DNA of 64,000 nucleotides from Gammaproteobacteria bacterium (GTDB taxonomy: Bacteria > Pseudomonadota > Gammaproteobacteria > Eutrophobiales > Eutrophobiaceae): the NCBI GenBank assembly GCA_004297165.1, contig SCUJ01000006.1, positions 1,364,464-1,428,463 on the forward strand, given 5' to 3'. A program made the position numbers and the translations under genes. This document shows positions 6,961-29,155 of the stretch, in pieces. Each line of letters starts with the position of its first letter. Positions within the stretch are counted from its first letter, which is position 1. The notes beneath the pieces are model-generated. The model did not search any database and was not told the DNA's origin. It saw only the letters and a list, made by a program, of their open reading frames with translations.

Positions 6961-6962
6961 AT

Positions 6963-6978: not shown

Positions 6979-7139
6979 GGCAAATAAATGATGGCGTTGC
7001 TCGATACTGCTTGCATGAGAACACCCCCCCGTATATCCGACATCTCGATCTGGTTTTGAGGGCTTTGACAGGTCGGTCAAGGCCCCGGAAATCGAGGTTT
7101 GAATCATAGTCAGATCATGTACGCCTGGCAAGTCCTTAT

Positions 7140-7158
7140 ACAACATTTAGTATGTTGT
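7140..7158. promoter_or_regulatory. Perfect inverted repeat in nrdJ upstream region
   Basis: ACAACAT-ttagt-ATGTTGT, a perfect 7-bp inverted repeat with a 5-bp spacer. Its geometry suits a dimeric repressor operator. The bound regulator is unknown. Confidence 0.35.
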
Positions 7159-7490: not shown

Positions 7491-7504
7491 TTGATTTGGA
7501 TCAA
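7491..7504. promoter_or_regulatory. FNR/CRP-family box, perfect match
   Basis: TTGAT-TTGG-ATCAA matches the FNR/ANR/DNR consensus TTGAT-N4-ATCAA exactly. It lies 33 bp beyond the stop of dch, in a gene-free stretch, with a -10-like TAGTCT 32 bp away on the minus strand. Confidence 0.65.
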
Positions 7505-8304: not shown

Positions 8305-8309
8305 CACGT

Positions 8310-9443: not shown

Positions 9444-9488
9444 ACGGGTGAAAATCCTCTATGGGTAATTTATCGATGATCCTGTTTT

Positions 9489-10553: not shown

Positions 10554-10697
10554 CGACTCGCACCTGTGGTAGAGGTCCACAAGCGGAGACCATCAAATTC
10601 GGAAGGTAATACGTCAGCGAGATTACTGCCAGGTGTTGTCATGCCACTAACCGTGTTTATCAGGTTCTTTACTTGGATATCGCTAAAGCCGGTGATA

Positions 10698-13783: not shown

Positions 13784-13825
13784 TTGATCCGGATCATGGG
13801 TGAGCGTGGCCTGCCTGCGTAGTAT
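13784..13825 (+). promoter_or_regulatory. FNR-type promoter for the kor-rnf operon
   Basis: TTGATCCGGATCAT (13784-13797) matches nine of ten FNR-box positions. TAGTAT (13820-13825) is a -10-like hexamer 32 bp centre to centre away. The 258-bp gap between the AOR-family gene and korA contains no other gene, so this is the likely promoter of the long operon. Confidence 0.55.
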
Positions 13826-13999: not shown

Positions 14000-15889
14000 A
14001 TGAAAGAGCAGACTGTGCGGGTCGCGGCCAATTCCAAGCAGATCATCCAGGCCGAGGAACACATCATCGAGATCGTTTCGGATTCGGGCGAGGGCGCGCA
14101 GACAGCGGGCCAGATGTTCGGGACCATATCCGCCAAGGCCGGAAACAGCGTCTGGACAGTGGAGATCATCCCCGCCGAGATCGAACCCCCCCCGCGCACA
14201 GCCCCCGGGGCGAGCGGCAACCGGATCCGGATCGGTTCCTTCGAGATCACCAATGCGGGGGATGACGCGAAACTGGTCGTGGCCTTCAATGAGCAGGCCC
14301 TGATGGGCGGCATGTCGGCAGGAAAATTCGAATCCGGCTGTATTGTTCTGCTCGAAAGCATGTGGGGCAAACACCCCAATCCGGCCATCGCCCGCGAATA
14401 CGCGGCGACGATGGAGAAGCTGAAACAAACCGATTACCGGATTTATGAAGTCCCCATGGAGGCCGAATGTCTCAAGGTTGTGCAGGATGCGCGCCGCGGC
14501 AAGAACATGTTCGTCGTGGGCATGCTCTGCAACATCTACTCGCGCGATCTCGCCTATGCCTACAAGGAGATCGAAAATAAATTCAAGGCAAAAAAACCCG
14601 CGATGATCAAACCCAACATCGATTTGCTGGATGCGGGTTATCGTTGGGCGGAGGAGAATCTCGATTTCCGCTTCGAGATTCCGCCCTGCCCGCAGCAAGG
14701 CGCCCAGTTGGTGGCCAACGGCAACACCTCGCTGGCGCTCGGCGTCATCGCCTCCGGCATGGAAGTGTGCGCGATGTATCCCATCACCCCGGCCACCTCC
14801 GCCTCGCATTATCTGAGCCAGGCGCTCTATGAAGCCGGCGGCGTCGTGCATCAGGCCGAGGACGAGATCGCGGCCTGCGGCTTCGCCATCGGGGCCTCCT
14901 ATGCCGGCAAGACGGCCGTCACCATCACCTCCGGCCCCGGCATGGCGCTGAAGACGGAATTGATGGCCCTCTCGGTCATGGCCGAGATACCGCTGGTCCT
15001 GGTCAATGTCCAGCGCGGCGGACCGAGCACCGGCTTGCCAACCAAGGTGGAACAGGGCGACCTGCTGTCCGCCATCTTCGGCTCGCCTGGCGACAACCCC
15101 AAGGTCGTGATGGCTCCGGCGACGATCGAGGATTGCTTTTACTGCATGATCACCGCCCGCAAGATTGCGGAGACCTTCCGGACCCTGGTGGTGGTCCTGT
15201 CCGACGCCAACCTCGCCACGGGCCAGGCCGCGTTCCCGAGACCCGTCCCGCAGAAGGAATGGGACGCCCCGCCTATTGATCAGAGCCCGGTGCCGAAGGG
15301 CGCCTTGCCCTACGATTGGGATCCGAAGACCGGCCTCTCGAAGCGTTTCATCCCCGGCCAGCCCGGCGGGATGCACACCCTCACGGGTCTGGCGCATACG
15401 CGCGCCTCGGGCGTGGCCTACGATCCGGAAGCGAATCAGGAAGGATGCGTGAACCGCAGTCTGAAGCTCGCGGCGTTTCAGAAGACGCTCAAGGCCCCCA
15501 AGGTGTTCGGGGATCCCGCGGGCGATCTGCTCATCGTCGGCTGGGGCAGCACCAAGGGCGCGATCGAAGAGGCGGTCACCAGGGCCCGCAAGGGCGGCCT
15601 CAAGGTCTCCGCGCTGCATCTGACCTACCTGCAACCGATGGCCTCCGGGATCAAGGAGATCATGCAGCAGTTCAAGCAGGTCATGACTGTGGAGATCAAT
15701 TATTCCGACGACCCGGCGCATGAACTCATCGACGAGAACAACCGCCGCTACGCCAATCTGGCGTGGCTGCTCCGCGCCCGTTACCTGATTGACATCGATT
15801 GCTGGTCCAATGTCTACGGTCAGCCGATTAAGCCCGGCGAGATCGAGCAGATGATCCGCGACCGTCTGTCCGCGCGTAAAACTCATTAG
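14000..15889 (+). CDS. korA: 2-oxoacid:ferredoxin oxidoreductase, gamma-alpha fusion subunit
   Basis: 629 residues. Residues 1-200 are the gamma domain (SDSGEGAQTAGQMFG at the start). Residues about 240-600 are the alpha (pyrimidine-binding) domain with the characteristic CAMYPITPATSASHYL and SGPGMALKTELM loops. With the next gene it should oxidise a 2-oxoacid, probably 2-oxoglutarate, with CoA and reduce ferredoxin. In Thauera, 2-oxoglutarate:ferredoxin oxidoreductase supplies electrons for the ATP-dependent benzoyl-CoA reductase, a fitting role next to had-oah-dch. The substrate is inferred from that parallel. Confidence 0.88.
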   Translation: MKEQTVRVAANSKQIIQAEEHIIEIVSDSGEGAQTAGQMFGTISAKAGNSVWTVEIIPAEIEPPPRTAPGASGNRIRIGSFEITNAGDDAKLVVAFNEQALMGGMSAGKFESGCIVLLESMWGKHPNPAIAREYAATMEKLKQTDYRIYEVPMEAECLKVVQDARRGKNMFVVGMLCNIYSRDLAYAYKEIENKFKAKKPAMIKPNIDLLDAGYRWAEENLDFRFEIPPCPQQGAQLVANGNTSLALGVIASGMEVCAMYPITPATSASHYLSQALYEAGGVVHQAEDEIAACGFAIGASYAGKTAVTITSGPGMALKTELMALSVMAEIPLVLVNVQRGGPSTGLPTKVEQGDLLSAIFGSPGDNPKVVMAPATIEDCFYCMITARKIAETFRTLVVVLSDANLATGQAAFPRPVPQKEWDAPPIDQSPVPKGALPYDWDPKTGLSKRFIPGQPGGMHTLTGLAHTRASGVAYDPEANQEGCVNRSLKLAAFQKTLKAPKVFGDPAGDLLIVGWGSTKGAIEEAVTRARKGGLKVSALHLTYLQPMASGIKEIMQQFKQVMTVEINYSDDPAHELIDENNRRYANLAWLLRARYLIDIDCWSNVYGQPIKPGEIEQMIRDRLSARKTH

Positions 15890-15900
15890 GAGACATCAGC

Positions 15901-16872
15901 ATGTTCGGCTTGAATGACAATTGCTCCATCGATCAGGACCAGGAATATCTGACCCTGGAAGACTACCAGGGCCGCGTCTCGCGCTGGTGCGCGGGTTGCG
16001 GCGACAACGGCATACTCGGCGCCACCCAGAGGCTGTGCCGGGACGAGCAGCTACCACGGGAAAAGACGGTGTTCGTCTCCGGCATCGGCTGCGCCGCGCG
16101 CTTCCCTCATTACATGAACACCTACGGATTCCATGGCCTGCACGGCCGCGCCCTGCCCATCGCGCAGGGGATCAAGATGCGGCGTCCGGACCTGCACGTC
16201 TTCGTGAACATGGGCGACGGCGACTGCTGCAGCATCGGCACCGCGCACTGGATCCATGCGCTGCGCGCGAACATGGATCTCGTGGTCATGCTGCACGACA
16301 ACGGCATCTATGGCCTGACCAAGAACCAGGCCTCGCCAACCACGCCGACCGGCCTGAAGACCAACACCACCCCGCGCGGAACAATGTTGCGGGCGCTGAA
16401 CCCGCTGACCGTGACGCTCGGCGTCACCAACGCCTCCTTCGTCGCGCAAGTTGGCGAGTGGATCCCTGACCTTCTCTTCGAAGTCCTCAAGCAGGCCTTC
16501 CATCACAAAGGGCTTTCGTTCGTCCGTATTCTGCAGCGCTGCCCGCATTTCACGCCGGAGTTGTACAATGCCCTGCTGACCAATCCGGACAACATCGTGC
16601 TGCTCACCCATGAAAAAGGCATGCAGATCGGCGAGACCACCGCGAAGATCTACAAGCGGCAGGAGCATCACGATCCGTCCGATCTCAACCGGGCCCGCGA
16701 ACTTGCCGAGATGAGCGACCGCGTCCCCATGGGCATTCTCTACCGCAACGAAGAGATAGGCAGGTACAACGAGATCTCCCGATCCGGGATCCTGCCCACC
16801 TGGGAACGGCGGGCCGAAGTCCTGGAATCCGCCTTCGATCGGTTCGGCATTCAGGCGAGTGCGGCGGAGTAA
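15901..16872 (+). CDS. korB: 2-oxoacid:ferredoxin oxidoreductase, beta (TPP-binding) subunit
   Basis: 323 residues. The TPP-binding signature is clear: GDGDCCSIG followed about 25 residues on by LHDNGIYGLTKNQ. Cysteines for the 4Fe-4S cluster are in WCAGCGDNG near the N-terminus and in SGIGCAARF. It starts 11 bp after korA with a GGAG ribosome site, forming the KorAB pair. In this operon it is the only protein with an intact TPP site, so it is the likely entry point for electrons that the downstream PFOR-like and Rnf proteins handle. Confidence 0.9.
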   Translation: MFGLNDNCSIDQDQEYLTLEDYQGRVSRWCAGCGDNGILGATQRLCRDEQLPREKTVFVSGIGCAARFPHYMNTYGFHGLHGRALPIAQGIKMRRPDLHVFVNMGDGDCCSIGTAHWIHALRANMDLVVMLHDNGIYGLTKNQASPTTPTGLKTNTTPRGTMLRALNPLTVTLGVTNASFVAQVGEWIPDLLFEVLKQAFHHKGLSFVRILQRCPHFTPELYNALLTNPDNIVLLTHEKGMQIGETTAKIYKRQEHHDPSDLNRARELAEMSDRVPMGILYRNEEIGRYNEISRSGILPTWERRAEVLESAFDRFGIQASAAE

Positions 16873-16956
16873 GACCAACTCCGGGTCGAACGGGCGCGAA
16901 GCCGCCCGAGACGCCGGGGCATTACTGACATTATTCATTGCGGGAAGGTACCAGAA

Positions 16957-19392
16957 GTGACTCTTAAACAAGCATACGATGCAACCCTCTTCAGCGGCTT
17001 GCCCTTCGAGCCCCCTCACACGGCGGTGGAGAAGGATGCCGCGAAGACGCTGCGCCAACTGCGCAATTTCCACTATTACGGGATCCTGGAGCCGGGAACG
17101 CAACCGGGGCCCGCGGGGGTTCCGGCGCTGCTGCATCCCTATCTCGACCTCGGCAGCGTGCGGCACGATTATCCCGTCTGTCTGGACGAGCAGGCCGGCG
17201 CGACCGTCCCGGTGCAATCGCTCACGCAACTCATGGATGAACTCATCAAGCACACCGCGGCTGCGGGTGACGAAGGCGAACGGCTGAAACGCCACGTCTA
17301 TCAATTGGAATCCGTGATCCGCAAACTGACCGAGACCGGCGCCGCCGCCGGGCTGCTGGGCCTCTGGGATCTCGCGGCCAAGAGCCTCACCGGCGCCGCG
17401 CAGCATGACCGCGACAAACAGGACCTGCTGCGGGAGAACCTGAGCAAGGCCCGCCGTTTGATCAAGCGCGACCTGACGGTGCTGGGCTGCGAAGGCGGCG
17501 TCGCCGAACGCATCCTGCGCGCGGAGGCCGCCGCCGACTGGCGGGTGCGTTGCGCGGACTGGCGCAAGGAACTCGCCGCGCTCATGCAACAGCTTCAGGA
17601 CATCCTCGACGCCGATTTCAATCAATCGCCGGAGGCCCGGAGCGCGAATCACCTCAGCAAGTCCAGCGGCACGACGGATCACGAGATCGACTTCGGCGAA
17701 CTCTCCTCCATCCTCGCCGCAAGCAAACAGGATTTCCGGCTGCCGGCCGAACGCAGAAGTCGCATAACGGAAACCCTGCAAACCCTCAAACGGGTCCAGC
17801 CCATCTTCGCCGAATCCAGCGCCGGACAAACCCTGCCCTTCGCCCTCCCCGCGATCTGCGCGAGCGCCGCCGAGGCCCTGCACCGCCAGCAGGAGATCAT
17901 GGGCGCGATGACGGATTTCTTCCGCGCGGTGAACATCGCCCGCCTCGAAGCGGGGAACCATTATCGCGAAACGGTGCATGATGCCTACTTCAAGGGCTAT
18001 GCGGTCAATCATCTGACCGAGAACGAATTGCGGCTGTGTCCGCAAGTCATGCTCAGCCTGCGCAGCAGCCAACTGGATAAATCGGATTGCGCGCTGCTTC
18101 TCGACATCCTCAACTCCGCCGCGGCGATCAAAACGCTCCTGCAGATCGATGATCTGACCAACGATGCGCCCGCCCTGGGAGGACTCCTCGGTTGGACCGC
18201 GCGGCTCGGCAACATGGCGCTCGCGCTGGCGAACGGTTACATACTGCAAACGTCTGTCTCCCGCCTCAACCTGCTGCAAAGCGGCATCCAGGCTGGCCTG
18301 AAATCCGACGGACCGGCCCTGTTCTGCGTCTATGCCGGCGGTAGCGAAAACCGCTCCGCACTCCCCGCCTACCTCGATGCGGCGGCAGCGACCGAGTCCA
18401 GGGTCTTACCGGCGTTCACCTATGACCCTGCCAGGGGAGACACGCTCAAGGTACGCCTCGAAATACAGGCCAATCCCCAGAACGACCAGGTATGGACCTG
18501 CGAATCCTTCGCCTTCCGGACGGCAACCGGCGACGATGCCGCCATCGAACTCGCCTTCACGCCCGCGGACTTCCTGTGCTGCGATCGGCGTCTCGCCGGT
18601 CAGTTCTGGGATGTGCCGGCGGCGCTCTGGCATGAGCAGATGATCCCCTTGCAGGATTATCTGGCGCAGGGACGCGAGGCCGCCAGGTCCGGCATTCCCT
18701 ATCTTCGCACCGTCGATGAGGAAGGGCTTATCCACCGGGTCGCAGTGACGCGCGCCGTGGTCGCGACCGTGCTGCAATGCCTCTCCGCCTGGAGACACAT
18801 GCAGGAGGTCGGCGGCATCAACAATTCCTACACGGCACATCAGGTGGCGCAGGAAAAGGCGCGCCTGGAGGCGGAACAACAGGCGGCGATCAAGGCCCTC
18901 GAAGAGCAGTACAGCCGGCAGCTCGATCAGGATCTGGGTCAATTGACCGAGGAGATCGTTCAGCGCATCGCCTCGCAACTGGTCCAGGGCGCGACTGGCG
19001 TGGTCCAGGCCGCGGCTGGCGTTACCGCGCGGATCGCACGGCCGGCGGTAAAGGAAGCCGCCCCGGCGGTGGAAGCCGCCGAGCCGGCGGCGCCCGACAA
19101 GGCCCCGGCGGCGGACGAGGACGAAGAAGGCGAGGCGGTATCGTTGGATGCCGCATACATCGAGACACCGCGCTGCACCACCTGCGATGAGTGCACCAAA
19201 CTCAATCCGCTGATCTTCGCCTACGATTCCAACAAGCAGGCATTCATCAAGGACGCCGCCGCGGGACCGTACAAGGATCTCGTCAAGGCGGCGGAGAAAT
19301 GCCCGGTGAAGATCATTCATCCCGGCAAACCGCTGAATCCCGCCGAGCCGCATCTGGACGATCTCATCAAGCGCGCCGAGCCGTTCATGTAA
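16957..19392 (+). CDS. Large PFOR-related protein with C-terminal ferredoxin domain
   Basis: 811 residues, GTG start. Residues 1-420 are mostly helical and not recognised. Residues about 428-625 resemble the C-terminal part of the second large protein of this operon (ILQTSVSRLNLLQSGI...GPALFCVYAG, and PADFLCCDRRL to WRHMQEVGG). That part is reminiscent of the end of the pyruvate:ferredoxin oxidoreductase beta domain, but no GDG TPP motif is present. A charged coiled-coil-like stretch (about 628-670) and an Ala/Pro/Glu linker follow. Cys740, Cys743, Cys746 and Cys782-Pro form one ferredoxin-type 4Fe-4S site. It lies directly before rnfB. I propose an electron-transfer subunit between KorAB and Rnf; the function is unproven. 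Confidence 0.6.
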   Translation: MTLKQAYDATLFSGLPFEPPHTAVEKDAAKTLRQLRNFHYYGILEPGTQPGPAGVPALLHPYLDLGSVRHDYPVCLDEQAGATVPVQSLTQLMDELIKHTAAAGDEGERLKRHVYQLESVIRKLTETGAAAGLLGLWDLAAKSLTGAAQHDRDKQDLLRENLSKARRLIKRDLTVLGCEGGVAERILRAEAAADWRVRCADWRKELAALMQQLQDILDADFNQSPEARSANHLSKSSGTTDHEIDFGELSSILAASKQDFRLPAERRSRITETLQTLKRVQPIFAESSAGQTLPFALPAICASAAEALHRQQEIMGAMTDFFRAVNIARLEAGNHYRETVHDAYFKGYAVNHLTENELRLCPQVMLSLRSSQLDKSDCALLLDILNSAAAIKTLLQIDDLTNDAPALGGLLGWTARLGNMALALANGYILQTSVSRLNLLQSGIQAGLKSDGPALFCVYAGGSENRSALPAYLDAAAATESRVLPAFTYDPARGDTLKVRLEIQANPQNDQVWTCESFAFRTATGDDAAIELAFTPADFLCCDRRLAGQFWDVPAALWHEQMIPLQDYLAQGREAARSGIPYLRTVDEEGLIHRVAVTRAVVATVLQCLSAWRHMQEVGGINNSYTAHQVAQEKARLEAEQQAAIKALEEQYSRQLDQDLGQLTEEIVQRIASQLVQGATGVVQAAAGVTARIARPAVKEAAPAVEAAEPAAPDKAPAADEDEEGEAVSLDAAYIETPRCTTCDECTKLNPLIFAYDSNKQAFIKDAAAGPYKDLVKAAEKCPVKIIHPGKPLNPAEPHLDDLIKRAEPFM

Positions 19393-19405
19393 GCAGGTAT
19401 CGCCC

Positions 19406-20248
19406 TTGATCGAAGGAATCACCGCCATCGGATTCCTGGTCGTCCTGGCCAGCCTCCTCGGCGTTATTCTCGCGGTGGCGAACGCGCGACTGAAGATCTT
19501 CGAAGATCCCCGGATCGACAAGGTCCAGGAGATGCTGCCCGGCACCAACTGCGGGGCCTGCGGCATGCCGGGCTGCCGGGTGTTTGCCGAGCAGGCCGTG
19601 GCCGGCGCCATCCAGCCGAGCCAGTGCCGCGTGGGCGGACCGGAGACTGCGGCGATCGTCGCCGGTTACCTCGGCGTGGACGCGGGCGATGTCGAGAAGG
19701 AAGTCGCGCGGCTCATGTGCGCCGGCGGGACCAACGTCGCCATCCAGATGGCAGAATACGTCGGCTATCCCACCTGCCAGTCCGCCACCGCGGTGGCGGG
19801 CGGCGGCAAGGGTTGCCGTTATGGCTGTCTCGGTTTCGGCGATTGCAAGGCCGTATGCGATTTTGACGCCATCGTCATGAGCCCTACGGGCCTGCCGGTG
19901 ATCGATCCGGACAAATGCACGGCCTGCGGGGCCTGCGTGGAGATCTGTCCCAAGAAACTGATCGAGCTGCGCCCGTTGAAACAGCGTCTGCTGGTGCAGT
20001 GCAAATCGGAACTGGCCGGCGACGGGATCCTCGCCTTGTGCAAGGTCGCCTGCACGGCCTGCGGCAAGTGCGTGGCGGACGCCCCGCCGGGTCTGCTCAA
20101 GATGAAGAAGAACCTGCCGGTCATCACCGACGAATTGATACATCTGCAAGCCCGTGATGCCACGTTGCGCTGCCCCACCGGGGCCATCACCTGGCTGAAC
20201 GACCAGACTTCCGCCGTTGCCAAGAAGGAGCCGGATCATGTGGTTTAA
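19406..20248 (+). CDS. rnfB: Rnf complex subunit B
   Basis: 280 residues, TTG start. An N-terminal membrane helix is followed by the RnfB Fe-S motif GTNCGACGMPGCRVFA (residues about 48-64), further cysteines (CRYGCLGFGDCKAVC), a ferredoxin motif CTACGACVEICPKK, and a last cluster region (CKVACTACGKCVAD and CPTGAI). RnfB accepts electrons from ferredoxin and passes them into the Rnf membrane complex, which couples ferredoxin:NAD oxidoreduction to an ion gradient. Unusually, it is separated from rnfC-A by a 4.6-kb PFOR-like gene whose start overlaps its last codons. Confidence 0.92.
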   Translation: MIEGITAIGFLVVLASLLGVILAVANARLKIFEDPRIDKVQEMLPGTNCGACGMPGCRVFAEQAVAGAIQPSQCRVGGPETAAIVAGYLGVDAGDVEKEVARLMCAGGTNVAIQMAEYVGYPTCQSATAVAGGGKGCRYGCLGFGDCKAVCDFDAIVMSPTGLPVIDPDKCTACGACVEICPKKLIELRPLKQRLLVQCKSELAGDGILALCKVACTACGKCVADAPPGLLKMKKNLPVITDELIHLQARDATLRCPTGAITWLNDQTSAVAKKEPDHVV

Positions 20249-23200
20249 GCGATCGTCCCCCGGAAAGAACGAGACCTATCCGATGGCCGGAATGAATCAC
20301 TATCTGGATGGACAGACGGCCGCCGCCACGGCGGCCAGCCAGGCAGGCGCCGTCCTGCTGGTGCGCGAAACGGCTGAATTCAATCACGTCAGAAATCGCC
20401 TGCAACACCCGCCGGCAGGCGGGAAACAGACCTTTCCCGACTATTTGCGGCAGGCGGAAGCGCCCGCCACCTTGCTCAACCGCGCCGCGGGTCTTGCCGC
20501 CACCGGGCAGCGCTGCACGGTATTGACGGACAGCCTGTCCGGACTGCGGGATGCCTTGCCCGCCATTGCTGGTCGCCGCCTCCCTCTGGTCGCCCATCTG
20601 GCAGCCAGGGCAACGAATCGCCAGGCCCAGTCCCGGCAGGGCGGGCACGATGAATATCACGCCGTGGCGTCCGCCGGGTGGTTTCAGTTTTTTGCGGCCT
20701 CGCCGCAGGAGGTCGTGGATCTGGGGTTCATCGCCCAGCGCCTCGCGGAGGCTGCGCTGACCCCCGGACTGGTGGCGCAGGACTGTTTCGTCACCAGTCA
20801 CGGGATCCGGCTGCTGCAGATGCCCGGCATGGAATGCATCGAGGCCTTCCTGGGGCGCGCGGATGATTTGATTCCCGCGCCGACGCCCGCCCAGGCCATG
20901 CTGTTCGGCGATCAGCGCAGGCGCGTGCCGGTGTTGATCAACCTGGACGCCCCGGCGGGTCTGGGTCTCTCCCAGGATCAGGAAAGTTTCTTCGCTGCCG
21001 CCGCCGCGCAACGGCCATTCTTCGCCGAGCATATCGAAGGACTCGCCGCACAGGCGATGCATGCCTATGGGGAATTGACCGGCAGATTCCATGCCCCCCT
21101 CTCCGGGTACCGCGCGGAAGACGCCGAATATCTGGTGCTGGCGCAGGGGGCGATCACGCTGGAACTGCGGGGCCTGGTGGACTGGCTCCGCGCCGAGGTC
21201 GGGATCAAGGCAGGCGTCGTGGGCCTGACCATGCTCCGGCCCTTCCCCGGTGGGAAGCTCTCGCAGATCCTCAAAGGCAAAAAGGCCCTGACCGTCCTGG
21301 AGCGCATCGATCAACCGCTGGCCGAGGACCTGCCCTTGCTCGCCGAGGTGCGATCCGCCCTGGACAAGGCCCACGAGAATGCCAAGGTCCAGGGGGCAAC
21401 GCGCCCTTACCCCGATTATGCCGCATACGACCGTCCCGCCGATCGCCCGACCCTGTATTCCGGGATCTATAGCCTCGGCGCGGAACTGCCGACCACAGCC
21501 CTGCTGCATGCCGTTTTCACGAGCATGACGCAACCCGGCGGCAGCCAGAGATTTTATCTCGGTAATTTCTTCACCACGCCCGACCGGCGTTTTCCCCATC
21601 TCCAGGCGACCGGTCAGCGGATCCTGCGGGACTATCCGGGGATCCAGCAGAACTCGCTCGCGCCCGTTGCTGTTCCGGTCACGTCCACCTCCGGGACACG
21701 CACCATCCGGCTCCTCTCGGATAGCGCCCAGCGCGGGCTTGCCGCGGTCAATACGCTCGCCCGGGGACTCGCCTACATCCACAACTGGAAGGTCAGCACC
21801 TTCCCGGACCACGGGTATGACGAGACGCTCGGGGAAGGCGCGATTGCCTGGCAATATTCCATGGATGCAACGCTCGCTGGTCCTGGACCCGATCATTGCG
21901 ACATCCTGCTGGCCTGTACCCCGGATCGACTCAACCAGCCGTCGACATACGCATCCGTGGCGGAAAAAGGCGTCATCATCGTGCAGACGGAAGGCGCGCC
22001 TCAGGACCTCTGGAACCGCTTCAGCCCGGACCTCAAGGAATGGATCCGCAAACGGCAATTGAGTTTAAAAACCATCGCTCCGGCGCTTCGCCATCACTCG
22101 GCGGTGACCGATGACCTGACGGCCTGGCGACTGCTCGGCGCGGGACTCGAAGGCGTACGGGAACTCGGCGCCGAAGGCCCCGGCACGCTCGGCGAATTCA
22201 TCGACAATCAGTTGCAGGTGGATCACGGTCAGAGCGCCGAGACCGCCTCCGCCTGTCTCAAGGCCCTCCGAGAGGCCGGCAACCAGCTTGTCACCCTCAA
22301 CTGGCAACGGCTCGAGGACAACCGCGAGCCGATCGCGGAGGCGGCAAGCCCCTGGAATCTCGCCGTCAGCGGCGATACTCAGGGCGATCTTTTTAATGCC
22401 CGCAGATTCTGGCACTCGGTGGGTTATCTCTACCGCACCGGAAGGATGGATCAATTGCCGGCGGACCCCATGCTGGCCACGGGGATCGTCCCTGCCGGCA
22501 GCGGCGCCGGCCGGGACCTGTCCGCGCAACATTATCGTCTGCCCGAATGGCAGCCGGAAAAATGCACCGGCTGCGGCGCTTGCTGGGGCCTGTGTCCCGA
22601 ATCCGCCCTGCCGTCCGCGTTGTACACCCCGCAAGCGCTGGTGGGTCACGCGCTGAAATCCCTGGAAGGCGAAGGCAAGACGCTGATTCAGATCAAGCGC
22701 ATTCAGGAGGCGCTCGGGAAGCAGGCATATCTGATCGCGCAACGGGATGGCCTCCATCAATTCACGCACCTCGACCAGCTCCTCGCGGAGGCCTTCCGCC
22801 AGTTGCTCGAGAAACTGTCCCTCGACGCCAAACAACAGGCGGCCTTGCGCGAGGAATTCAAGCTGTTGGAAGGCTATTTCGCCGGGTTCCGCGCCGCGCG
22901 AACGGAGACGTTCTTCGATGGCCTCCACGCAAAATCCAAGGGCAATGGCGCGCTGCTCGCCATCAGCCTGAATCCCGCCGCCTGCACCGCCTGCGGGCTG
23001 TGCGCGGCGGTATGTCCCGAGCAGGCCTTCGTCTGGATGAAGACATCGCCGGAGCGGCTCTCCTCCCTGCGGCAGAATTTCAGCTTGCAGATGCAGTTGC
23101 CGGAGACCGCCCCGGATCTGCTGGAGGCGGTATGCGAGGGCGGTTCGGAAAACACCACCTGCAACCGGCTCCTGCGCAAATCCGCCTATCTCGCGATGAG

Positions 23201-24836
23201 CGGGGGCGACGGTTCCGTACCGGGCAACCTCGCCAAGAGCGCCGCGCATAATATCGTCGCCGCCGTCGAGTCCGTGATGCAGCCGCGTTTCGCCCGCCAT
23301 AGCGAGGCACTCGGCAAGCTCAGCAAGGCCTTGATGGATGCGATCCAGGGCAAGCTGACGGAGGCGGTGAAGATCAACGATTTCGATGACTTCGCGCACA
23401 AACTGAGCCGCCTCGGCACAGGCGGCTTGACCACCGACAGACTCGTGAGCCTGGTCTCCGGGGACAGCGCCACGGGTCCGGAACACCAGGCGCGGATCCA
23501 GCGCATGACGGCATTGCTGGAACAGATCAGCGCCCTGCGTGAACGCTACGAGATCGGGGCCGGCCGGGAGCGGGCGCGGATGATCCTCGTCCTCGATCCC
23601 GAGGCGGGGCATTTGTGGAACGGGATCTATCCCTATAACCCCCACACCAATCCCTGGATCAGCCTGCAACCGGAAGAAACCGCCGGTCTCGCCGAAGGCC
23701 TGTACGAAGGGACCTGCAATACGCTGATCGGCGAACTCGCGCTCTGCCGCAGCGCCGCGGCGGAACTCCAGGAGGCCAATTTCAGCGCGGCGACACAGCC
23801 GATCGTCACGCCACTCTGCATGACAGAACTCACGCCTGAAGAACGCGGGCTACTGCCCCCCGTTTTAATACTCTGCCGCAGCAGGAGCCTCAACCACACC
23901 GGGCTGAGTCGGCTGCTCTCCGGCGCCGCTCCGATCCTGGTCGCCATGATCGAGGGCGATCCGCTGCCGCTCGTCCCCGGCAGCCGGACCTTCCACGGCG
24001 GGACGCAACCGGGTCTCCACGCCCTGCTCCATGCGGATGCATTTGTCGTACAGGCTTCAGCCGCGGATCCGGGGCGCCTCATCCAGGGGTGTGTGGCCGC
24101 CCTGGAACAAAATGAACCGGCGTTGTTCCATGTCCTCGCCCCGGAACATGCCGTGAATCCGGCCATCGCGGACCGGACCCTGGCCAATCTCAAACTCGCC
24201 GGGAAGAGCAGACTCTTCCCGGCCTTCACCGGACGCCGGGAGCAGGAAACCGCCTCGCTCCATCTCACGCTGCACAACCAGGAGGCCACGCACGCCGACT
24301 GGGCCGAAGATACGATCGTCTATCAGACCCCGGCCGGGACCGCGGGGTCGCTCGCGCGCCGGGTCACCCCGGCGGACTGGGCCTTGCAGACCGGTTCCCA
24401 TCCGGGGCATTTCCAAATCCTCGGCCTTGGTCACCTGAATGCGCAGATGCTGCCGCTCACGGATTATATCGAGCTGCCGCCTGAGCAACGCGAGGGCAAG
24501 GAGCCCTATATCCTTTTCGCCGACAGCACCCGGCAGGAGAAGGTCGCCGTCGTCTCCGCGGCCCTGGTGCAGGCGGTGTGTTACGCCCGCGACCGCTGGC
24601 GTCACCTGCAAGGCATTGCCGAACCATTACCGCGAGTCATGGCGACCGACTCGGAAGCGAAACCGACTGAGACTGTCGCGCCGCCTTCCACGCCTGATGC
24701 CGGGCAATCCGTGCAAACCCTGACGGAAAACCTGCTTGCCATGTGCGGCTACAGCGGCGACCCGGTTTACTTCAAGCGATCGCTCCGGGAGTTCCTCGGC
24801 CGGGGTCCCGGCGGATCGGGAGATGCGACCGGATGA
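20238..24836 (+). CDS. Giant PFOR-like protein with two 4Fe-4S motifs and no TPP signature
   Basis: 1532 residues, ATG at 20238 (AAGGAG upstream), overlapping the end of rnfB by 11 bp. The layout follows NifJ-type pyruvate:ferredoxin oxidoreductase: residues about 15-370 resemble domains I-II (HLAARATNRQAQ, VGLTMLRPFPGGKL), about 485-640 the gamma domain, then ferredoxin clusters at Cys776/779/782/786 and Cys916/919/922/926. The YPITP loop of domain I is missing. A lone GDG near residue 990 lacks the rest of the TPP motif. The last part (about 1269-1465) resembles the preceding 811-residue protein. It is probably an electron-transfer or scaffold subunit that lost decarboxylase chemistry. Confidence 0.65.
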   Translation: MWFKRSSPGKNETYPMAGMNHYLDGQTAAATAASQAGAVLLVRETAEFNHVRNRLQHPPAGGKQTFPDYLRQAEAPATLLNRAAGLAATGQRCTVLTDSLSGLRDALPAIAGRRLPLVAHLAARATNRQAQSRQGGHDEYHAVASAGWFQFFAASPQEVVDLGFIAQRLAEAALTPGLVAQDCFVTSHGIRLLQMPGMECIEAFLGRADDLIPAPTPAQAMLFGDQRRRVPVLINLDAPAGLGLSQDQESFFAAAAAQRPFFAEHIEGLAAQAMHAYGELTGRFHAPLSGYRAEDAEYLVLAQGAITLELRGLVDWLRAEVGIKAGVVGLTMLRPFPGGKLSQILKGKKALTVLERIDQPLAEDLPLLAEVRSALDKAHENAKVQGATRPYPDYAAYDRPADRPTLYSGIYSLGAELPTTALLHAVFTSMTQPGGSQRFYLGNFFTTPDRRFPHLQATGQRILRDYPGIQQNSLAPVAVPVTSTSGTRTIRLLSDSAQRGLAAVNTLARGLAYIHNWKVSTFPDHGYDETLGEGAIAWQYSMDATLAGPGPDHCDILLACTPDRLNQPSTYASVAEKGVIIVQTEGAPQDLWNRFSPDLKEWIRKRQLSLKTIAPALRHHSAVTDDLTAWRLLGAGLEGVRELGAEGPGTLGEFIDNQLQVDHGQSAETASACLKALREAGNQLVTLNWQRLEDNREPIAEAASPWNLAVSGDTQGDLFNARRFWHSVGYLYRTGRMDQLPADPMLATGIVPAGSGAGRDLSAQHYRLPEWQPEKCTGCGACWGLCPESALPSALYTPQALVGHALKSLEGEGKTLIQIKRIQEALGKQAYLIAQRDGLHQFTHLDQLLAEAFRQLLEKLSLDAKQQAALREEFKLLEGYFAGFRAARTETFFDGLHAKSKGNGALLAISLNPAACTACGLCAAVCPEQAFVWMKTSPERLSSLRQNFSLQMQLPETAPDLLEAVCEGGSENTTCNRLLRKSAYLAMSGGDGSVPGNLAKSAAHNIVAAVESVMQPRFARHSEALGKLSKALMDAIQGKLTEAVKINDFDDFAHKLSRLGTGGLTTDRLVSLVSGDSATGPEHQARIQRMTALLEQISALRERYEIGAGRERARMILVLDPEAGHLWNGIYPYNPHTNPWISLQPEETAGLAEGLYEGTCNTLIGELALCRSAAAELQEANFSAATQPIVTPLCMTELTPEERGLLPPVLILCRSRSLNHTGLSRLLSGAAPILVAMIEGDPLPLVPGSRTFHGGTQPGLHALLHADAFVVQASAADPGRLIQGCVAALEQNEPALFHVLAPEHAVNPAIADRTLANLKLAGKSRLFPAFTGRREQETASLHLTLHNQEATHADWAEDTIVYQTPAGTAGSLARRVTPADWALQTGSHPGHFQILGLGHLNAQMLPLTDYIELPPEQREGKEPYILFADSTRQEKVAVVSAALVQAVCYARDRWRHLQGIAEPLPRVMATDSEAKPTETVAPPSTPDAGQSVQTLTENLLAMCGYSGDPVYFKRSLREFLGRGPGGSGDATG

Positions 24837-26182
24837 CGGCCACTGCCGCAGCGCAGACCTTCCGCCACGGGATTCACCCCGGCGAAAACAAGGAACTCAC
24901 CGCGGGTCGCTTGATCGAACGGATGCCGTTCCCCGAAGAGGTGGTGCTGCCCCTGTCCCAGCATCTCGGCGCGCCGTCCCGGCCGATCGTCGAGGTGGGC
25001 GAGAAGGTCTACCGCGGGCAGATAATCGCCCTCGCCGACGGGTATGTCTCCGTCCCGCTCCATGCCTCGGCAACCGGCCGCGTCACCGCCATCGCCAAAC
25101 GTCCCCATCCGGGCGGCAAGCCGCAGGAGGCGATCGTCATCGCCTGCGACCCGACCTCGCCCCAGACCCTCTACAACGAAGGGGCGCTGTCCTGGGAACA
25201 CCTGAACAAGAACGAGGTCCTGACGGCGATCCAGAACGGCGGTTTTGTGGGTCTCGGCGGCGCCGCCTTTCCCACCCATGTCAAATTCTCAATCCCGCGT
25301 GGGAAGCGCGTACAATTTTTTCTGGTGAACGGTTGCGAGTGCGAGCCTTACCTCACCACCGATCACCGCATCATGCTGGAATTCGGCGATTCCATCCTGC
25401 TCGGGATCCGCATCCTGCAAAAGATGCTCGGCGCGGAGAAGACCATCTTCGGCGTGGAGGACAACAAGTGGGACGCCATCCGCTCGCTGCGGGAGAAGAT
25501 CCCGTCCGATCTGCCCTGCGACATCATCTCCCTGGAGTCCAAATACCCGCAGGGCGCGGAAAAGATGCTGATCACCGCGATGCTGCAACGCGAGGTTCCG
25601 AGCGGACGGCTGCCCATCGATGTGCAGGTGGTGGTCAGCAATGTGGGCACGGTGGCCGGGATCGGCGACATGTTCGCCTACGGCCAGCCGCTGATCGAGC
25701 GGATCGTCACTGTGACCGGTCCGGGGATCCGCAAACCCGCCACCCTCATGATCCCGCTCGGGACCCGGTTGCGCGATGTCATCGATCACTGCGGCGGACT
25801 CACCGACGACATCCGCCAGGTCCTGCTCGGCGGCCCGATGATGGGCACGCCCCAGTTCGATCTCGAAGTGCCGGTCATGAAAGGCACTTCAGGAATACTT
25901 TGTCTGACCCAATCCCAGGCCCCTTCCCGCCGGGAGTATCCCTGCATCCGCTGCTCGGCCTGTCTGGACGCGTGCCCCGTCTTCCTCAACCCCAGCGCGC
26001 TGGGGTCGCTGGCCCGCTCCGCCAAATATGAGCAAATGCTCGCCTATCACATCATGGACTGCATCGAGTGCGGATCCTGCTCGTATGTCTGCCCGTCGAA
26101 CATCCCGCTGGTCCAGCGCTTTCGGGTCAGCAAGGGTCTGTTGCGGATGAAGCAGGCCAAAGAGAAAGCGAGGACCAATTGA
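24833..26182 (+). CDS. rnfC: Rnf complex subunit C
   Basis: About 449 residues. The start overlaps the stop of the PFOR-like gene (ATGA). It carries the NADH/FMN-binding region shared with NuoF (GLGGAAFPTHVK and FLVNGCECEPYLTTD) and two ferredoxin motifs (CIRCSACLDACPVFLNP and CIECGSCSYVCPSNIPLV). RnfC is the peripheral subunit that reacts with NAD(H). Translational coupling to the upstream gene argues that the PFOR-like protein and Rnf work together. Confidence 0.93.
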   Translation: MTATAAAQTFRHGIHPGENKELTAGRLIERMPFPEEVVLPLSQHLGAPSRPIVEVGEKVYRGQIIALADGYVSVPLHASATGRVTAIAKRPHPGGKPQEAIVIACDPTSPQTLYNEGALSWEHLNKNEVLTAIQNGGFVGLGGAAFPTHVKFSIPRGKRVQFFLVNGCECEPYLTTDHRIMLEFGDSILLGIRILQKMLGAEKTIFGVEDNKWDAIRSLREKIPSDLPCDIISLESKYPQGAEKMLITAMLQREVPSGRLPIDVQVVVSNVGTVAGIGDMFAYGQPLIERIVTVTGPGIRKPATLMIPLGTRLRDVIDHCGGLTDDIRQVLLGGPMMGTPQFDLEVPVMKGTSGILCLTQSQAPSRREYPCIRCSACLDACPVFLNPSALGSLARSAKYEQMLAYHIMDCIECGSCSYVCPSNIPLVQRFRVSKGLLRMKQAKEKARTN

Positions 26183-27222
26183 ATTCCAACCCGCATAATC
26201 TGGTCCTCTCCACCTCGCCGTTTCTGAAACGCCCGGTGGATACGCCGCTCATCATGCGGCACGTGATCTATAGCCTCGCGCCCGTGGCGCTCGCGGCGAT
26301 CTGGTTCTTCGGCGTGAGCGCCCTCCTGCTGATCCTGACCTGCATCGGCGGCTGCATGGCGAGCGAGATGCTCTTCGAGGGCAAGGTTCCGTTCCGGCAG
26401 CGCACGGTGACGGACGGCAGCGCGGCGCTCACGGGCCTCCTGCTGGCGCTCACCCTCCCGCCGGGATTGCCGTTATGGATGGCCCTCGTCGGTTCGCTGG
26501 CCGCGATCGTCGTCGGCAAGATCATCTTCGGCGGACTGGGTCAGAACGTCTTCAACCCCTCGCTCACCGGCCGCGCCTTCCTGCAGGGCTGTTTCCCGGT
26601 GCCGCTGACGACCTGGGCTGCGCCTGGCGGCCTTACGGATTTCTTCACCCTGCGTGGGGACACCTTCGCCCTGCCCTTCACCAATCCGGAGTTCGATGCC
26701 CTGAGCGCCGCGACCCCGCTCGCGAAAATGAAATTCGATGCCGCGGGCACGCCGCTCGCCGACCTGTTCTTCGGCAACGTCTCCGGATCGCTCGGCGAGA
26801 CCTCCGCGCTGCTCATCCTCCTCGGCGGCGCCTATCTGGCCTGGTGTCGCTTTCTGAATTGGCGCATCCCCGCGGGCATCTTCATAACGATCTTTGCCTT
26901 CGCCACCATCCTGCATCTCGCGAATCCGGAGCGGTTTCCCGATGGCTTCTTTCATCTGTTATCCGGCGGGCTGATGCTGGGCGCGGTGTATATGGCCACC
27001 GACCCGGTCACCTCGCCGGTCACGCCGAGGGGTTCCTGGATCTTCGCCTCGGGTCTCGGCATCCTGGTGGTCTCAATCCGCGAGTTCGGCGGCCTCGCCG
27101 AAGGCGTGATGTATTCCATCCTCTTCATGAACGCCTGCACCCCGCTCATCGATCGCTTCACCCAGCCCCGCACCTACGGCGAGCTGAACACGGAAAACGA
27201 ACCGGGAGAGAGCCGTGGGTAG
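26179..27222 (+). CDS. rnfD: Rnf complex subunit D
   Basis: About 348 residues from a TTG start at 26179 that overlaps the rnfC stop. It is a multi-helix membrane protein with the covalent-FMN threonine motif in LSAATPL (about residue 175-182), equivalent to the SGAT site of RnfD/NqrB. An in-frame reading further upstream gives a sequence unlike RnfD, so the TTG is preferred. Membrane core of the ion-translocating complex. Confidence 0.92.
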   Translation: MNSNPHNLVLSTSPFLKRPVDTPLIMRHVIYSLAPVALAAIWFFGVSALLLILTCIGGCMASEMLFEGKVPFRQRTVTDGSAALTGLLLALTLPPGLPLWMALVGSLAAIVVGKIIFGGLGQNVFNPSLTGRAFLQGCFPVPLTTWAAPGGLTDFFTLRGDTFALPFTNPEFDALSAATPLAKMKFDAAGTPLADLFFGNVSGSLGETSALLILLGGAYLAWCRFLNWRIPAGIFITIFAFATILHLANPERFPDGFFHLLSGGLMLGAVYMATDPVTSPVTPRGSWIFASGLGILVVSIREFGGLAEGVMYSILFMNACTPLIDRFTQPRTYGELNTENEPGESRG

Positions 27223-27925
27223 TCCGCTGGTTGAGCCAAGAGCGCCCGATGACACGAGTCCCGAGACCTCCGGTCTCGTCATGATCGTGACCATGGGCGT
27301 CATCGGCCTGATCAGCGCCGTGCTGATAGTCGGCGCCTACCGAAGCACCCTGGAAACCATCAAGGAGAACAAGGCCGCGTTTCTGGAAAAGTCAGTCTTC
27401 GAGGTCCTCCCCGGCACCGCGCGCAAGATCACCTTCGGCGCGAACGGCGAGGAATTGCGGGAGATGGGCGAGGATGAGCCGCGGGAATTCAGCTATCACG
27501 CCGGTTACAACGCAAGCGGCGAACTGACCGGGATCGCCATTGTGACGGAAGGCCAGGGATTCGCCGACACCCTGCGCATCCTCTACGGTTACTCGCTGGA
27601 ATGTCACTGCATCGTCGGCATGAAGGTCCTGGACAGCCGGGAGACGCCGGGTCTCGGGGACAAGATCATGACCGACCCCGCGTTTCGCGCCAATTTCGAT
27701 GCCTTGGATGTCAGCCTCAATGATGAAGGGAAGGAGATCCGCAACCCGATCGTGCTGGTGAAGCCCCGCCAGAAGACCGATCCCTGGCAGATCGAGGCCA
27801 TCAGCGGGGCCACGATATCCTCGCGCGCGATCGCCGACATGCTGACGGCGAGCACCGCGCGGAGCATACCTTTCGTGGAACAACACCTCGCGATCTTTAA
27901 GGCAGGAGGTAAACATGGCGAATGA
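27215..27925 (+). CDS. rnfG: Rnf complex subunit G
   Basis: 236 residues with one N-terminal membrane helix (about 20-42) and a periplasmic FMN domain. The FMN-attachment motif ISGATISSRAI, with its threonine near residue 205, and the ETPGLGDKI motif are clear. The start overlaps rnfD by 8 bp. It carries covalent FMN on the outer face of the complex. Confidence 0.93.
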   Translation: MGSPLVEPRAPDDTSPETSGLVMIVTMGVIGLISAVLIVGAYRSTLETIKENKAAFLEKSVFEVLPGTARKITFGANGEELREMGEDEPREFSYHAGYNASGELTGIAIVTEGQGFADTLRILYGYSLECHCIVGMKVLDSRETPGLGDKIMTDPAFRANFDALDVSLNDEGKEIRNPIVLVKPRQKTDPWQIEAISGATISSRAIADMLTASTARSIPFVEQHLAIFKAGGKHGE

Positions 27926-28580
27926 CACCGCAACTGCAACCCCCGATATCGCCATTGCGGCAACGTCCGCGCGCGATGAAAACCTGGAAGCCCTGACCCG
28001 CGGTATCTGGCGGGAAAACCCGGTCTTTGTCATGTTGCTCGGGAACTGCCCGACGCTCGCCGTCACCAATTCCGTCATCAACTCGCTGGCCATGGGTCTG
28101 GCGACCACCTTCGTCCTGGTAATGTCGTGCATGATCGTCGCCATGATCCGCGACTTCGTGCCAAAAGAAGTCCGCATCGCCTGTTATATCCTGGTCATCG
28201 CCACCTTCGTCACGATCGTCGATTACCTCCTGCAGGCGATCAGCTTTGATGTGCACCGCGCCCTCGGGGCCTTCATCTCCCTCATCGTGGTCAACTGCAT
28301 CATTCTCGGCCGGGCCGAGGCCTTCGCCTCGAAGAACAGCGTCCTCAAATCCTCGCTGGATGCGCTGGGCTTCGGGATCGGCTTCACCCTGGCCTGCCTG
28401 TTCATGGGCGTGGTGCGGGAGGTGATCGGCGCCGGCAGTTTTGCCGGGATACCGTTGTTCGGCCCCGATTTCGCCGGCTGGTCCATCATGATCCTGCCGG
28501 GCGGGGCCTTTTTCGTCCTCGGCTCCTGGCTGCTGTTGTTCAACTGGCTGGCGGCGCGCCGCAAAAGGAGACCCGCATGA
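27915..28580 (+). CDS. rnfE: Rnf complex subunit E
   Basis: 221 residues, six predicted helices, RnfE/NqrD family (ENPVFVMLLGNCPTLAVTNS near the N-terminus, with the conserved membrane cysteine). The start overlaps rnfG by 11 bp, with AGGAGG just upstream. Together with RnfA it forms the membrane channel that holds an Fe centre at the symmetry axis. Confidence 0.93.
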   Translation: MANDTATATPDIAIAATSARDENLEALTRGIWRENPVFVMLLGNCPTLAVTNSVINSLAMGLATTFVLVMSCMIVAMIRDFVPKEVRIACYILVIATFVTIVDYLLQAISFDVHRALGAFISLIVVNCIILGRAEAFASKNSVLKSSLDALGFGIGFTLACLFMGVVREVIGAGSFAGIPLFGPDFAGWSIMILPGGAFFVLGSWLLLFNWLAARRKRRPA

Positions 28581-29155
28581 ACACCCCCTCGCTCATGATT
28601 TTCATTGACGCGTGTCTCATCAACAACTTCGTGCTGGCGCTGTTTCTCGGCCTGTGCCCCTTTCTCGGCGTCTCCACGCGCACCGAGACCGCGTTCAACA
28701 TGGGGCTCGCCGTCACCTTTGTGATGCTGCTGACCTCGGTCAGCGCCTACCTGATCAACCTGCTTCTGAATGCGATCGGCGCTCCCTATCTGAGTCTCAT
28801 CTGTTATATCGTGGTCATCGCTTCTTCCGTGCAATTCGTCGAGATGGTCATCAAGAAATACAGCCCGGCGCTGTTCCGCGCGCTCGGCATCTATCTCCCG
28901 CTCATCACCACGAACTGCGCCATCACCGCACTGGCCCTCTTCCAGACCAGCCGCGGGTACGATTTCATCCAGTGCCTCGCCTTCGCGCTGGGCTCCGGCG
29001 CCGGTTTCATCCTGGCCTTGATGCTGATGTCCGGGATCCGCGAGCGCCTGGAGCTGTCCGACGTCAATCCCATCCTGCAAGGCACCGCGATCGCCCTCAT
29101 GATCTCCGGCGTCCTCTCCATGGCCTTTATGGGATTTGCGGGGATGGGGCGGTGA
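28577..29155 (+). CDS. rnfA: Rnf complex subunit A
   Basis: 192 residues, six helices, RnfA/NqrE family (FLGLCPFLGVST near the N-terminus and TTNCAITALALF further on). The start overlaps the rnfE stop (ATGA). It is the last gene of the operon. No clear terminator follows; the hipA remnant on the other strand begins within 5 bp, which suggests that an insertion or deletion removed the normal downstream sequence. Confidence 0.93.
   Translation: MNTPSLMIFIDACLINNFVLALFLGLCPFLGVSTRTETAFNMGLAVTFVMLLTSVSAYLINLLLNAIGAPYLSLICYIVVIASSVQFVEMVIKKYSPALFRALGIYLPLITTNCAITALALFQTSRGYDFIQCLAFALGSGAGFILALMLMSGIRERLELSDVNPILQGTAIALMISGVLSMAFMGFAGMGR

Follow-up and report, generated by a model that had tools for sequence, protein, structure and literature searches.

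This analysis concerns a ten-gene operon from a gammaproteobacterium of the family Eutrophobiaceae (contig SCUJ01000006.1, assembly GCA_004297165.1), which occupies positions 14000-29155 of the 64,000-nucleotide stretch of DNA analysed here (the window). All ten genes lie on the plus strand in the order korA-korB-X-rnfB-Y-rnfCDGEA, where X and Y stand for proteins of 811 and 1532 amino acids. Both X and Y are PFOR pseudoenzymes whose electron-carrying parts have been kept, save in one of the Y proteins, and the gene order is conserved across phyla. We lean towards the view that the operon encodes a membrane-bound, ion-coupled oxidoreductase between a 2-oxoacid, most likely 2-oxoglutarate, and NAD+, in which fixed subunits would take the place of a diffusing ferredoxin.

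The operon and its two PFOR pseudoenzymes

Start codons and spacings given here are those of the likely starts, and scores are set against the curated cut-offs of NCBIfam or those of Pfam. korA (14000-15889) matches TIGR03710 (OAFO_sf) with 504.9 bits (cut-off 482.75) and carries the Pfam domains POR, POR_N and PFOR_II. It is followed after 11 bp by korB (15901-16872), which passes the Pfam cut-offs for TPP_enzyme_C and PFO_beta_C and scores 241.7 with TIGR02177, under the NCBIfam cut-off of 261.9; a thiamine motif (GDG) and CxxC/GC cluster motifs were recognised in it by eye. The pair has the make-up of the two-subunit KorAB type, an alpha/gamma fusion and a beta subunit with thiamine and one [4Fe-4S] motif, and KorA is the fused gamma-alpha subunit of a 2-oxoacid:acceptor oxidoreductase, with 2-oxoglutarate as the probable substrate. 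X (16957-19392, GTG start) begins 84 bp after korB, and a long form of rnfB (19406-20248, TTG start; TIGR01944, 84.8 bits against 68.7) follows after 13 bp, with the Pfam domains FeS and Fer4_9 and several [4Fe-4S] motifs.

From rnfB through rnfA all junctions overlap. Y (20238-24836, ATG start; Pfam POR_N, PFOR_II and two Fer4 stretches) overlaps rnfB by 11 bp, and rnfC (24833-26182; TIGR01945, 521.9 against 245.95), which encodes the NADH/FMN subunit with two [4Fe-4S] clusters, overlaps Y by 4 bp. Then come rnfD (26179-27222, TTG start, 4 bp overlap; TIGR01946, 324.8 against 207.05), rnfG for the covalent-FMN subunit (27215-27925, 8 bp; Pfam FMN_bind, with TIGR01947 at 78.7, under its cut-off of 102), rnfE (27915-28580, 11 bp; TIGR01948, 229.6 against 213.4) and rnfA (28577-29155, 4 bp; TIGR01943, 230.1, narrowly over 229.3). 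All six Rnf subunits are thus encoded together (A to E above NCBIfam cut-offs, G by Pfam only) and RnfC retains the FMN/NADH-type domain Complex1_51K (Pfam); from these genes, the window Rnf is predicted to couple ion transport to electron transfer with NAD(H). No gap between korA and rnfA exceeds 84 bp, and there is therefore no space for a free ferredoxin gene in the operon.

The kinship of Y with PFOR is evident from its sequence: it matches the PFOR of structure 6cin with an E value of 2e-31 (phmmer) and aligns to it along stretches that we take to be domains I, II and V. Motifs were compared in an alignment of eight Y proteins, including that of genome G030, which lacks its start at a contig end, with five related PFORs (G and L numbers are our labels for genomes and loci). 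The Y gene of G017 (L031/L063) is spread over several reading frames, through either a break in the gene or faults in the assembly, and was excluded. The five PFORs retain the thiamine/Mg motifs and the four cysteines of the proximal cluster. In all eight Y proteins the four aligned proximal-cluster columns are free of cysteine and YPITPS is absent, this last stretch being missing or cut in three. The GDG...TGGQ thiamine/Mg motif is gone from seven of the eight, the Gemmatimonadota Y retaining a remnant; in the window Y both this motif and the pyrimidine-domain motif are absent. All eight cysteines of the domain-V [4Fe-4S] clusters are present in seven of the eight, the window Y included. The pattern therefore indicates that catalysis has been lost and an electron wire kept, and on this evidence Y appears to be a full-length PFOR pseudoenzyme without the catalytic and proximal-cluster residues. 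The loss of the proximal cluster and thiamine motifs led us to reject Y as an active second PFOR.

X matches only a ferredoxin domain in Pfam and nothing in NCBIfam; its kinship with PFOR becomes visible through sequence overlap with Y and through predicted structure. An AlphaFold2 model built on a 28-sequence alignment (predicted local distance difference test score, pLDDT, 84.1; predicted template modelling score, pTM, 0.72) comprises a PFOR beta domain (residues ~72-620) and a C-terminal ferredoxin domain with one [4Fe-4S] cluster (730-811). Besides the window, the 28 rows cover 27 loci out of the 31 from the scan described below; L074, L077, L081 and L088 were excluded for over-long, near-duplicate or cut open reading frames (ORFs), and the cut L089 was included. 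In a fold search, residues 72-620 matched residues 695-1170 of PFOR 6cin_A (Z 22.6, root-mean-square deviation 4.9, 265 aligned) and residues 730-792 matched ferredoxin I of Desulfovibrio africanus (1fxr; Z 9.1, deviation 2.8, 63 aligned); the other matches among the 50 listed were beta subunits of oxoacid oxidoreductases (Z ~10-18) and general thiamine enzymes (Z ~8-9). The ferredoxin cysteines C740, C743, C746 and C782 are invariant in all 28 X proteins. Neither NTGGQ nor, at the thiamine place, GGDG occurs in any of the 28; L064 carries a GGDG elsewhere, at residue 299, and L075 a lone GDG near the place. X is thus modelled as a catalytically dead beta domain of PFOR that ends in a ferredoxin tail with one cluster.

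An earlier reading of the window (the sequence-only reading) had described rnfB between two large PFOR-like genes, with rnfC overlapping the second and overlaps of 4-11 bp from rnfB to rnfA; genes, order and every overlap are as it reported. Its term 'PFOR-like' fits X as well as Y, although X matches no PFOR family. That both are pseudoenzymes is new and had not been seen in that reading.

Conservation, partners and the intact-PFOR layout

The Rnf-type order is present in nine genomes: the window's own (G000), G030, G017, G470, G756 and G769, these last five being of the same class, Gammaproteobacteria, and one genome each of the Calditrichota, Gemmatimonadota and Planctomycetota, so that with the Pseudomonadota four phyla are spanned. 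Seven of the nine have the full order on a single contig, G470 and the Gemmatimonadota genome carrying additional genes within it; in G030 and G017 contig ends break up the operon, and rnfC and rnfD of G017 lie on a separate contig. An order shared by nine genomes of four phyla is not due to chance, and the sequence-only reading, which had staked its case on recurrence in at least one other genome, is borne out in this respect. The Planctomycetota operon has another korAB upstream. The Gemmatimonadota operon (G453) includes a segment in which a DNA-methylase-like gene was recognised by eye, and between its Y and rnfC lies a gene for a DASS-like sodium-coupled symporter scoring under the family cut-off (L127, 13019-14809).

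A scan with the X alignment, limited to one genome per species, returned 31 loci. In 29 of them korA and/or korB lies directly upstream of X, the exceptions (L088, L089) being cut at contig ends. The partner is Rnf in five of the 31; in 16, NfnAB-like genes stand upstream of korA; L090 shows neither; and the remaining nine, truncated at contig ends, were left unassigned (L073, L077, L078, L080, L084, L085, L088, L089, L091); Rnf and NfnAB partners occur together in none of the 31. NfnAB was checked with family models in four loci, and in the others by identity to the NfnAB-like proteins of Photobacterium. The occurrence of KorABX with either partner suggests that X serves the hand-over of electrons to a pyridine-nucleotide module. 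NfnAB-like-korA-korB-X is in itself a widespread five-gene unit (L072, L074, L070, L079 and others), present in Photobacterium lipolyticum DSM 16190 and Ramlibacter lithotrophicus RBP-1; the Photobacterium X, like that of the window, has no NCBIfam match.

Trees of KorA and RnfC bear on how the partners were inherited. In the KorA tree, from which L062 (same genome as L030) and matches shorter than 300 residues were left out, a supported group (97/99) made up of the NfnAB-type sequences and three without an assigned partner lies among the Rnf-type sequences. The root is unsure, the outgroup being long-branched, and the group is therefore read only as consistent with one partner swap. The RnfC tree holds 31 chosen rows, nine linked to Y, 15 linked to PFOR and seven ordinary (one of these from Photobacterium, the other six from genomes with the operon or with PFOR-Rnf). 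RnfC proteins linked to an oxoacid:ferredoxin oxidoreductase (OFOR) are set apart from the seven ordinary ones by a 100/100 branch and fall into Y-linked (94/88) and PFOR-linked (100/99) subgroups. Near the seven ordinary rnfC loci there is no oxoacid oxidoreductase match, and rnfB lies directly upstream of rnfC in six, the seventh being cut there. Rnf and its oxoacid partners thus appear to have been inherited together.

A simpler form of the arrangement, with an intact-looking PFOR between rnfB and rnfC, was found when the PFOR of G418 was searched against 369 sampled genomes of the window's class. At E <= 1e-150, 24 genomes matched; 20 of them encode this PFOR type, of 1635-1697 residues where complete, and the other four matches are the Y-type proteins of the window genome, G470 and G756 and a different PFOR in G542. 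Both rnfB and rnfC flank the PFOR at one locus in 12 of the 20 and on separate contig pieces in three; one of the two genes was seen in four (three cut by contig ends; in G674 rnfC is present and rnfB is not in view) and neither in one (G472). G324 and G418, which come from an earlier sample of the phylum, share the rnfB-PFOR-rnfC layout, and G769 bears both kinds of operon. The 16 complete PFORs examined (14 of the 20, plus G418 and G324) all keep the proximal and domain-V cysteines, those of an X-like ferredoxin tail, and the thiamine motifs; the cysteine motifs take variant forms in four and in two of the 14, with the cysteines themselves present in all 16. The Kor-X-Y arrangement probably derives from this simpler layout with an active PFOR in the rnfB-rnfC slot. 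A related PFOR apparently has another soluble partner: in G203 (L095, 6742-14689) a PFOR of 1680 residues is followed by a protein of 956 residues that by eye resembles a glutamate-synthase-like NAD(P)H module.

Proposed mechanism, genomic surroundings and alternatives

In the mechanism that we propose, KorAB would carry out the thiamine chemistry, interconverting 2-oxoglutarate and CoA with succinyl-CoA, CO2 and two electrons; the ferredoxin domain of X would accept the electrons; Y would dock X and/or KorAB onto RnfB/RnfC and relay them; and RnfBCDGEA would exchange them with NAD(H), coupled to the movement of Na+ or H+. The slot that PFOR occupies between rnfB and rnfC would be the seat of an electron donor/acceptor module. 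Y may have inherited this slot together with the domain-V clusters, KorAB would replace the catalysis of PFOR, and X would supply the ferredoxin domain that an active PFOR has at its own C-terminus. The intact PFOR in the slot, the separate RnfC group and the dead PFORs with their clusters point to a fixed electron path. The sequence-only reading had already suggested that a 2-oxoacid oxidoreductase is physically linked to Rnf; the genetic link is conserved in four phyla and accompanied by a separate RnfC lineage, and the complex itself we infer.

The chemistry is reversible. The oxidation of 2-oxoglutarate lies ~0.18 V below NAD in potential, which is enough for ion pumping, the reverse requiring a gradient. 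In an aromatic degrader the electrons produced from 2-oxoglutarate exceed those used in ring reduction, which makes an energy-saving route from Kor to NAD plausible. For the window organism, an anaerobic aromatic degrader with only a weak RuBisCO-like match, we favour the oxidative, ion-pumping direction, in which the operon would serve as an anoxic 2-oxoglutarate dehydrogenase and conserve energy as well. Where relatives have RuBisCO and neighbours resembling the reductive tricarboxylic acid (TCA) cycle, it could run in reverse as a 2-oxoglutarate synthase. More tentatively, and with somewhat less than even confidence, we propose a family of ion-pumping oxoacid:NAD+ oxidoreductases with the oxoacid enzyme built into Rnf, in which X and Y would form a fixed wire, perhaps a heterodimer mimicking the PFOR dimer, that bypasses ferredoxin, and in which the module could be swapped (active PFOR, KorABX with Y, or KorABX with NfnAB). 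On this tentative reading a TCA-cycle step would be directly redox-coupled to an ion gradient and reversible between energy saving and CO2 fixation.

Several observations weigh against this account. In the Planctomycetota Y each of the two domain-V clusters is partly lost; the wire is accordingly not universal, or this Y is merely a scaffold. A model of the C-terminal part of Y (920 residues, five sequences) was poor (pLDDT 53, pTM 0.44) and was not used. In L090 (Opitutales), for all its long flanks, korABX stands beside neither partner. Of the nine cut loci, eight have at least 1.7 kb of sequence downstream of X and no rnfB in it, and are therefore not of the Rnf type there; together these make the Rnf type the minority form of KorABX. 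The NfnAB-type X loci have no Y, so that X works without it. The Gemmatimonadota operon is interrupted by a second korAB, by the symporter gene and by a small ORF between rnfD and rnfG. Finally, the window genome has a second, ordinary rnf locus and encodes the E1 component of 2-oxoglutarate dehydrogenase.

Upstream of the operon, the benzoyl-CoA pathway genes dch, oah and had (7537-10580, minus strand) are divergently oriented and score above the cut-offs of the equivalog models TIGR03189, TIGR03200 and TIGR03201; the sequence-only reading had likewise placed benzoyl-CoA genes next to the operon. Between them and korA lies a plus-strand gene (11423-13744) for a protein of the aldehyde:ferredoxin oxidoreductase (AOR) family with a C-terminal ThiS/MoaD domain (Pfam AFOR_N, AFOR_C, ThiS). 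It is closer to 1aor (E = 8e-60) than to BamB (4z3w; E = 4e-22, a single stretch in the N-terminal domain), and its identification as the class II benzoyl-CoA reductase BamB was rejected on that ground; in the other Rnf-type loci compared there is no AOR match, and the protein is probably not part of the complex. As it ends in GG, it is possibly a tungsten or molybdenum enzyme fused to its own sulfur-carrier domain. Further upstream, 4795-7146 encodes the adenosylcobalamin-dependent ribonucleotide reductase NrdJ.

The window holds more FNR-type boxes than chance predicts: six sites match TTGATNNNNATCAA with at most one mismatch, against 1.61 expected, a count attained in 2 of 100 shuffles. Perfect boxes lie at 10698, 118 bp upstream of had, and at 7491-7504, in the intergenic region ~345 bp upstream of nrdJ; sites with one mismatch lie at 11338, upstream of the AOR-family gene, and at 13784-13797 on the plus strand, ~200 bp upstream of korA (pattern scan), and the remaining two at 22683, within Y, and at 46997, far off. 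An Rfam scan of the window gave no family over threshold, and consensus promoter (2 against 4.4) and terminator (19 against 13.8, standard deviation 3.8) scans gave little beyond chance.

Elsewhere in the window genome, ~300 kb away, a class I benzoyl-CoA reductase cluster (L100, G000:C13:1066000-1085900) contains bcrC, bcrB and bcrA, assigned by equivalog models, together with a YfhL-type ferredoxin gene and its own divergent korAB, a layout that we take to be that of Thauera-type clusters; bcrD was not picked out among the ORFs chosen there. oah is above the family cut-off in only three of the nine operon-bearing genomes (G000, G030 and G017), all of the window's family, and in G030 and G017 it lies on a contig other than that of the operon. 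As to the substrate of Kor, the context that points to 2-oxoglutarate is sucC-sucD within one operon, between Y and rnfC in G470, and malate-dehydrogenase-like genes after rnfA in two, in G470 (named by eye) and in G756 (a partial ORF, under the cut-off). Beside the G470 operon there are also fumarate-reductase-like and NuoF-like genes, both under cut-offs, and this cluster (L158, L161, L162) resembles an island for a reductive TCA half-cycle, possibly with an NADH-linked fumarate reductase. Strong RuBisCO matches are present in six of the eight genomes examined, including G030 of the window's family, and those of the window genome (39.6 bits) and G017 (88.9 bits) are weak (cut-off 30.1). A search for ATP-citrate lyase gave no match in the eight genomes, nor in the controls. 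In G418 and G769 a phosphoenolpyruvate synthase gene comes after the PFOR-Rnf operon.

The last of these observations suit a mainly reductive machine, in which Rnf would run backwards on NADH and the ion gradient to fix CO2 into 2-oxoglutarate (and, where PFOR is the enzyme, into pyruvate) as part of a TCA cycle of the reductive or horseshoe kind: the G470 order kor-X-rnfB-Y-sucCD-rnf with its malate-dehydrogenase-, fumarate-reductase- and NuoF-like neighbours, the gene in G756, the phosphoenolpyruvate synthases and the strong RuBisCO matches all fit it. We nevertheless regard it as rather unlikely to be the main role: RuBisCO-like matches are weak in G017 and in the window genome, which moreover carries bcr and has had-oah-dch beside the operon. 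It is unlikely, too, that the link is functional only, with KorAB and Rnf sharing a pool of soluble ferredoxin, the operon serving co-regulation, and X and Y acting as loose accessory or regulatory proteins. The ferredoxin gene beside bcr means that a free ferredoxin exists in the genome, and X is also found without Rnf or Y; against this reading stand the intact PFOR in the same rnfB-rnfC slot, the OFOR-linked RnfC group and the retention of cluster domains in dead PFORs.

The sequence-only reading had proposed that Rnf, running backwards, supplies reduced ferredoxin for benzoyl-CoA reductase with KorAB assisting, and had looked to genomes with oah for the same operon. The divergent had-oah-dch genes with their perfect FNR box accord with this, as does the presence of oah in all three operon-bearing genomes of the family. 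Yet bcr has its own ferredoxin and korAB, six of the nine operon-bearing genomes have no oah above the cut-off, and KorAB would itself yield low-potential electrons, so that Rnf would not be needed; we consider the proposal very unlikely and have rejected a role specific to benzoyl-CoA, a reading that rests on the local neighbourhood rather than on a general pattern. Least credible of all is that X and Y are alive, binding another cofactor and catalysing a second oxoacid reaction: both are long with a conserved outline, and the Gemmatimonadota Y has its remnant of the thiamine motif, but the proximal cluster and, save for that remnant, the thiamine motifs have been lost across lineages.

Comparison with known systems

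Rnf is described as drawing its electrons from soluble ferredoxin. If the ion-coupled oxidoreductase proposed here is real, Rnf can carry its own oxoacid oxidoreductase, and a step of central carbon metabolism is coupled straight to an ion gradient. The electrons involved are near -500 mV, and such coupling would explain how they are handled without loss in bacteria that are not strictly anaerobic; it would also offer a route to extra energy in anaerobic aromatic degradation, or to reductive CO2 fixation in autotrophs.

The nearest relatives of X and Y of known structure are the PFORs of Moorella and D. africanus (6cin, 1b0p, 7plm), which share domains I, II and V with Y and the fold of the C-terminal region with X; they differ in that X and Y have no thiamine site or proximal cluster, and X ends in a tail resembling ferredoxin I. 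NfnAB, the NADH-dependent ferredoxin:NADP+ oxidoreductase, is soluble and not ion-pumping. It is absent from the window operon, and NfnAB-like genes before korA-korB-X in 16 of 31 loci suggest that it takes the place of Rnf plus Y there. Among anaerobic aromatic degraders, Azoarcus evansii reportedly has a 2-oxoglutarate:NADP+ oxidoreductase. In the benzoyl-CoA pathway of Thauera, according to the text available, KorAB works with ferredoxin (PMC9973337); a KorAB-type enzyme handing on electrons is common to both systems, but the window operon has X, Y and Rnf and encodes no free ferredoxin.

In tubeworm symbionts and Thioflavicoccus, a reductive TCA cluster comprises korABCD, flx-hdr, pntAB and rnf (PMC6315080; PMC11636981). 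It likewise has 2-oxoglutarate oxidoreductase genes near electron-transfer complexes that include Rnf, but from the portions of these papers available to us its Kor has four subunits interspersed with flx-hdr, and an X-rnfB-Y-rnfC arrangement is not described. The second of these studies reports that a 'PFOR-like' gene and a dimeric korAB drop together in expression (PMC11636981); our results offer a candidate function for large genes of this kind, such as the one whose role that paper, in its accessible part, leaves open, and we would guess that it encodes an X or a Y. Allochromatium vinosum has three rnf clusters, for which the available text names only an exchanger among the associated genes (PMC3368242).

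We found no description of korAB-X-rnfB-Y-rnfCDGEA in the literature, in a search outside which most subscription journals and supplements lay. An oxoacid oxidoreductase between rnfB and rnfC was met in PMC4287430 only, as against the available portions of PMC6315080, PMC4914600, PMC9973337, PMC10734462, PMC3534657, PMC4268860, PMC11636981, PMC3368242, PMC4014512 and PMC11269200. The layout with PFOR inside Rnf is thus already known, whereas the Kor-X-Y form is real, conserved and undescribed in the literature searched, and its use of pseudoenzymes is unusual. The known case is the Rnf2 operon of the Solemya velum symbiont, reported in 2014, in which PFOR genes stand between rnfB2 and rnfC2 and for which, in the text available, the authors suggest pyruvate as electron donor to Rnf (PMC4287430). 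As far as that text describes it, the two operons are alike in placing an oxoacid:ferredoxin oxidoreductase gene between rnfB and rnfC; they differ in that the symbiont has PFOR itself in this position, whereas the slot in the window holds a PFOR without an active site, catalysis being assigned to KorAB plus X.

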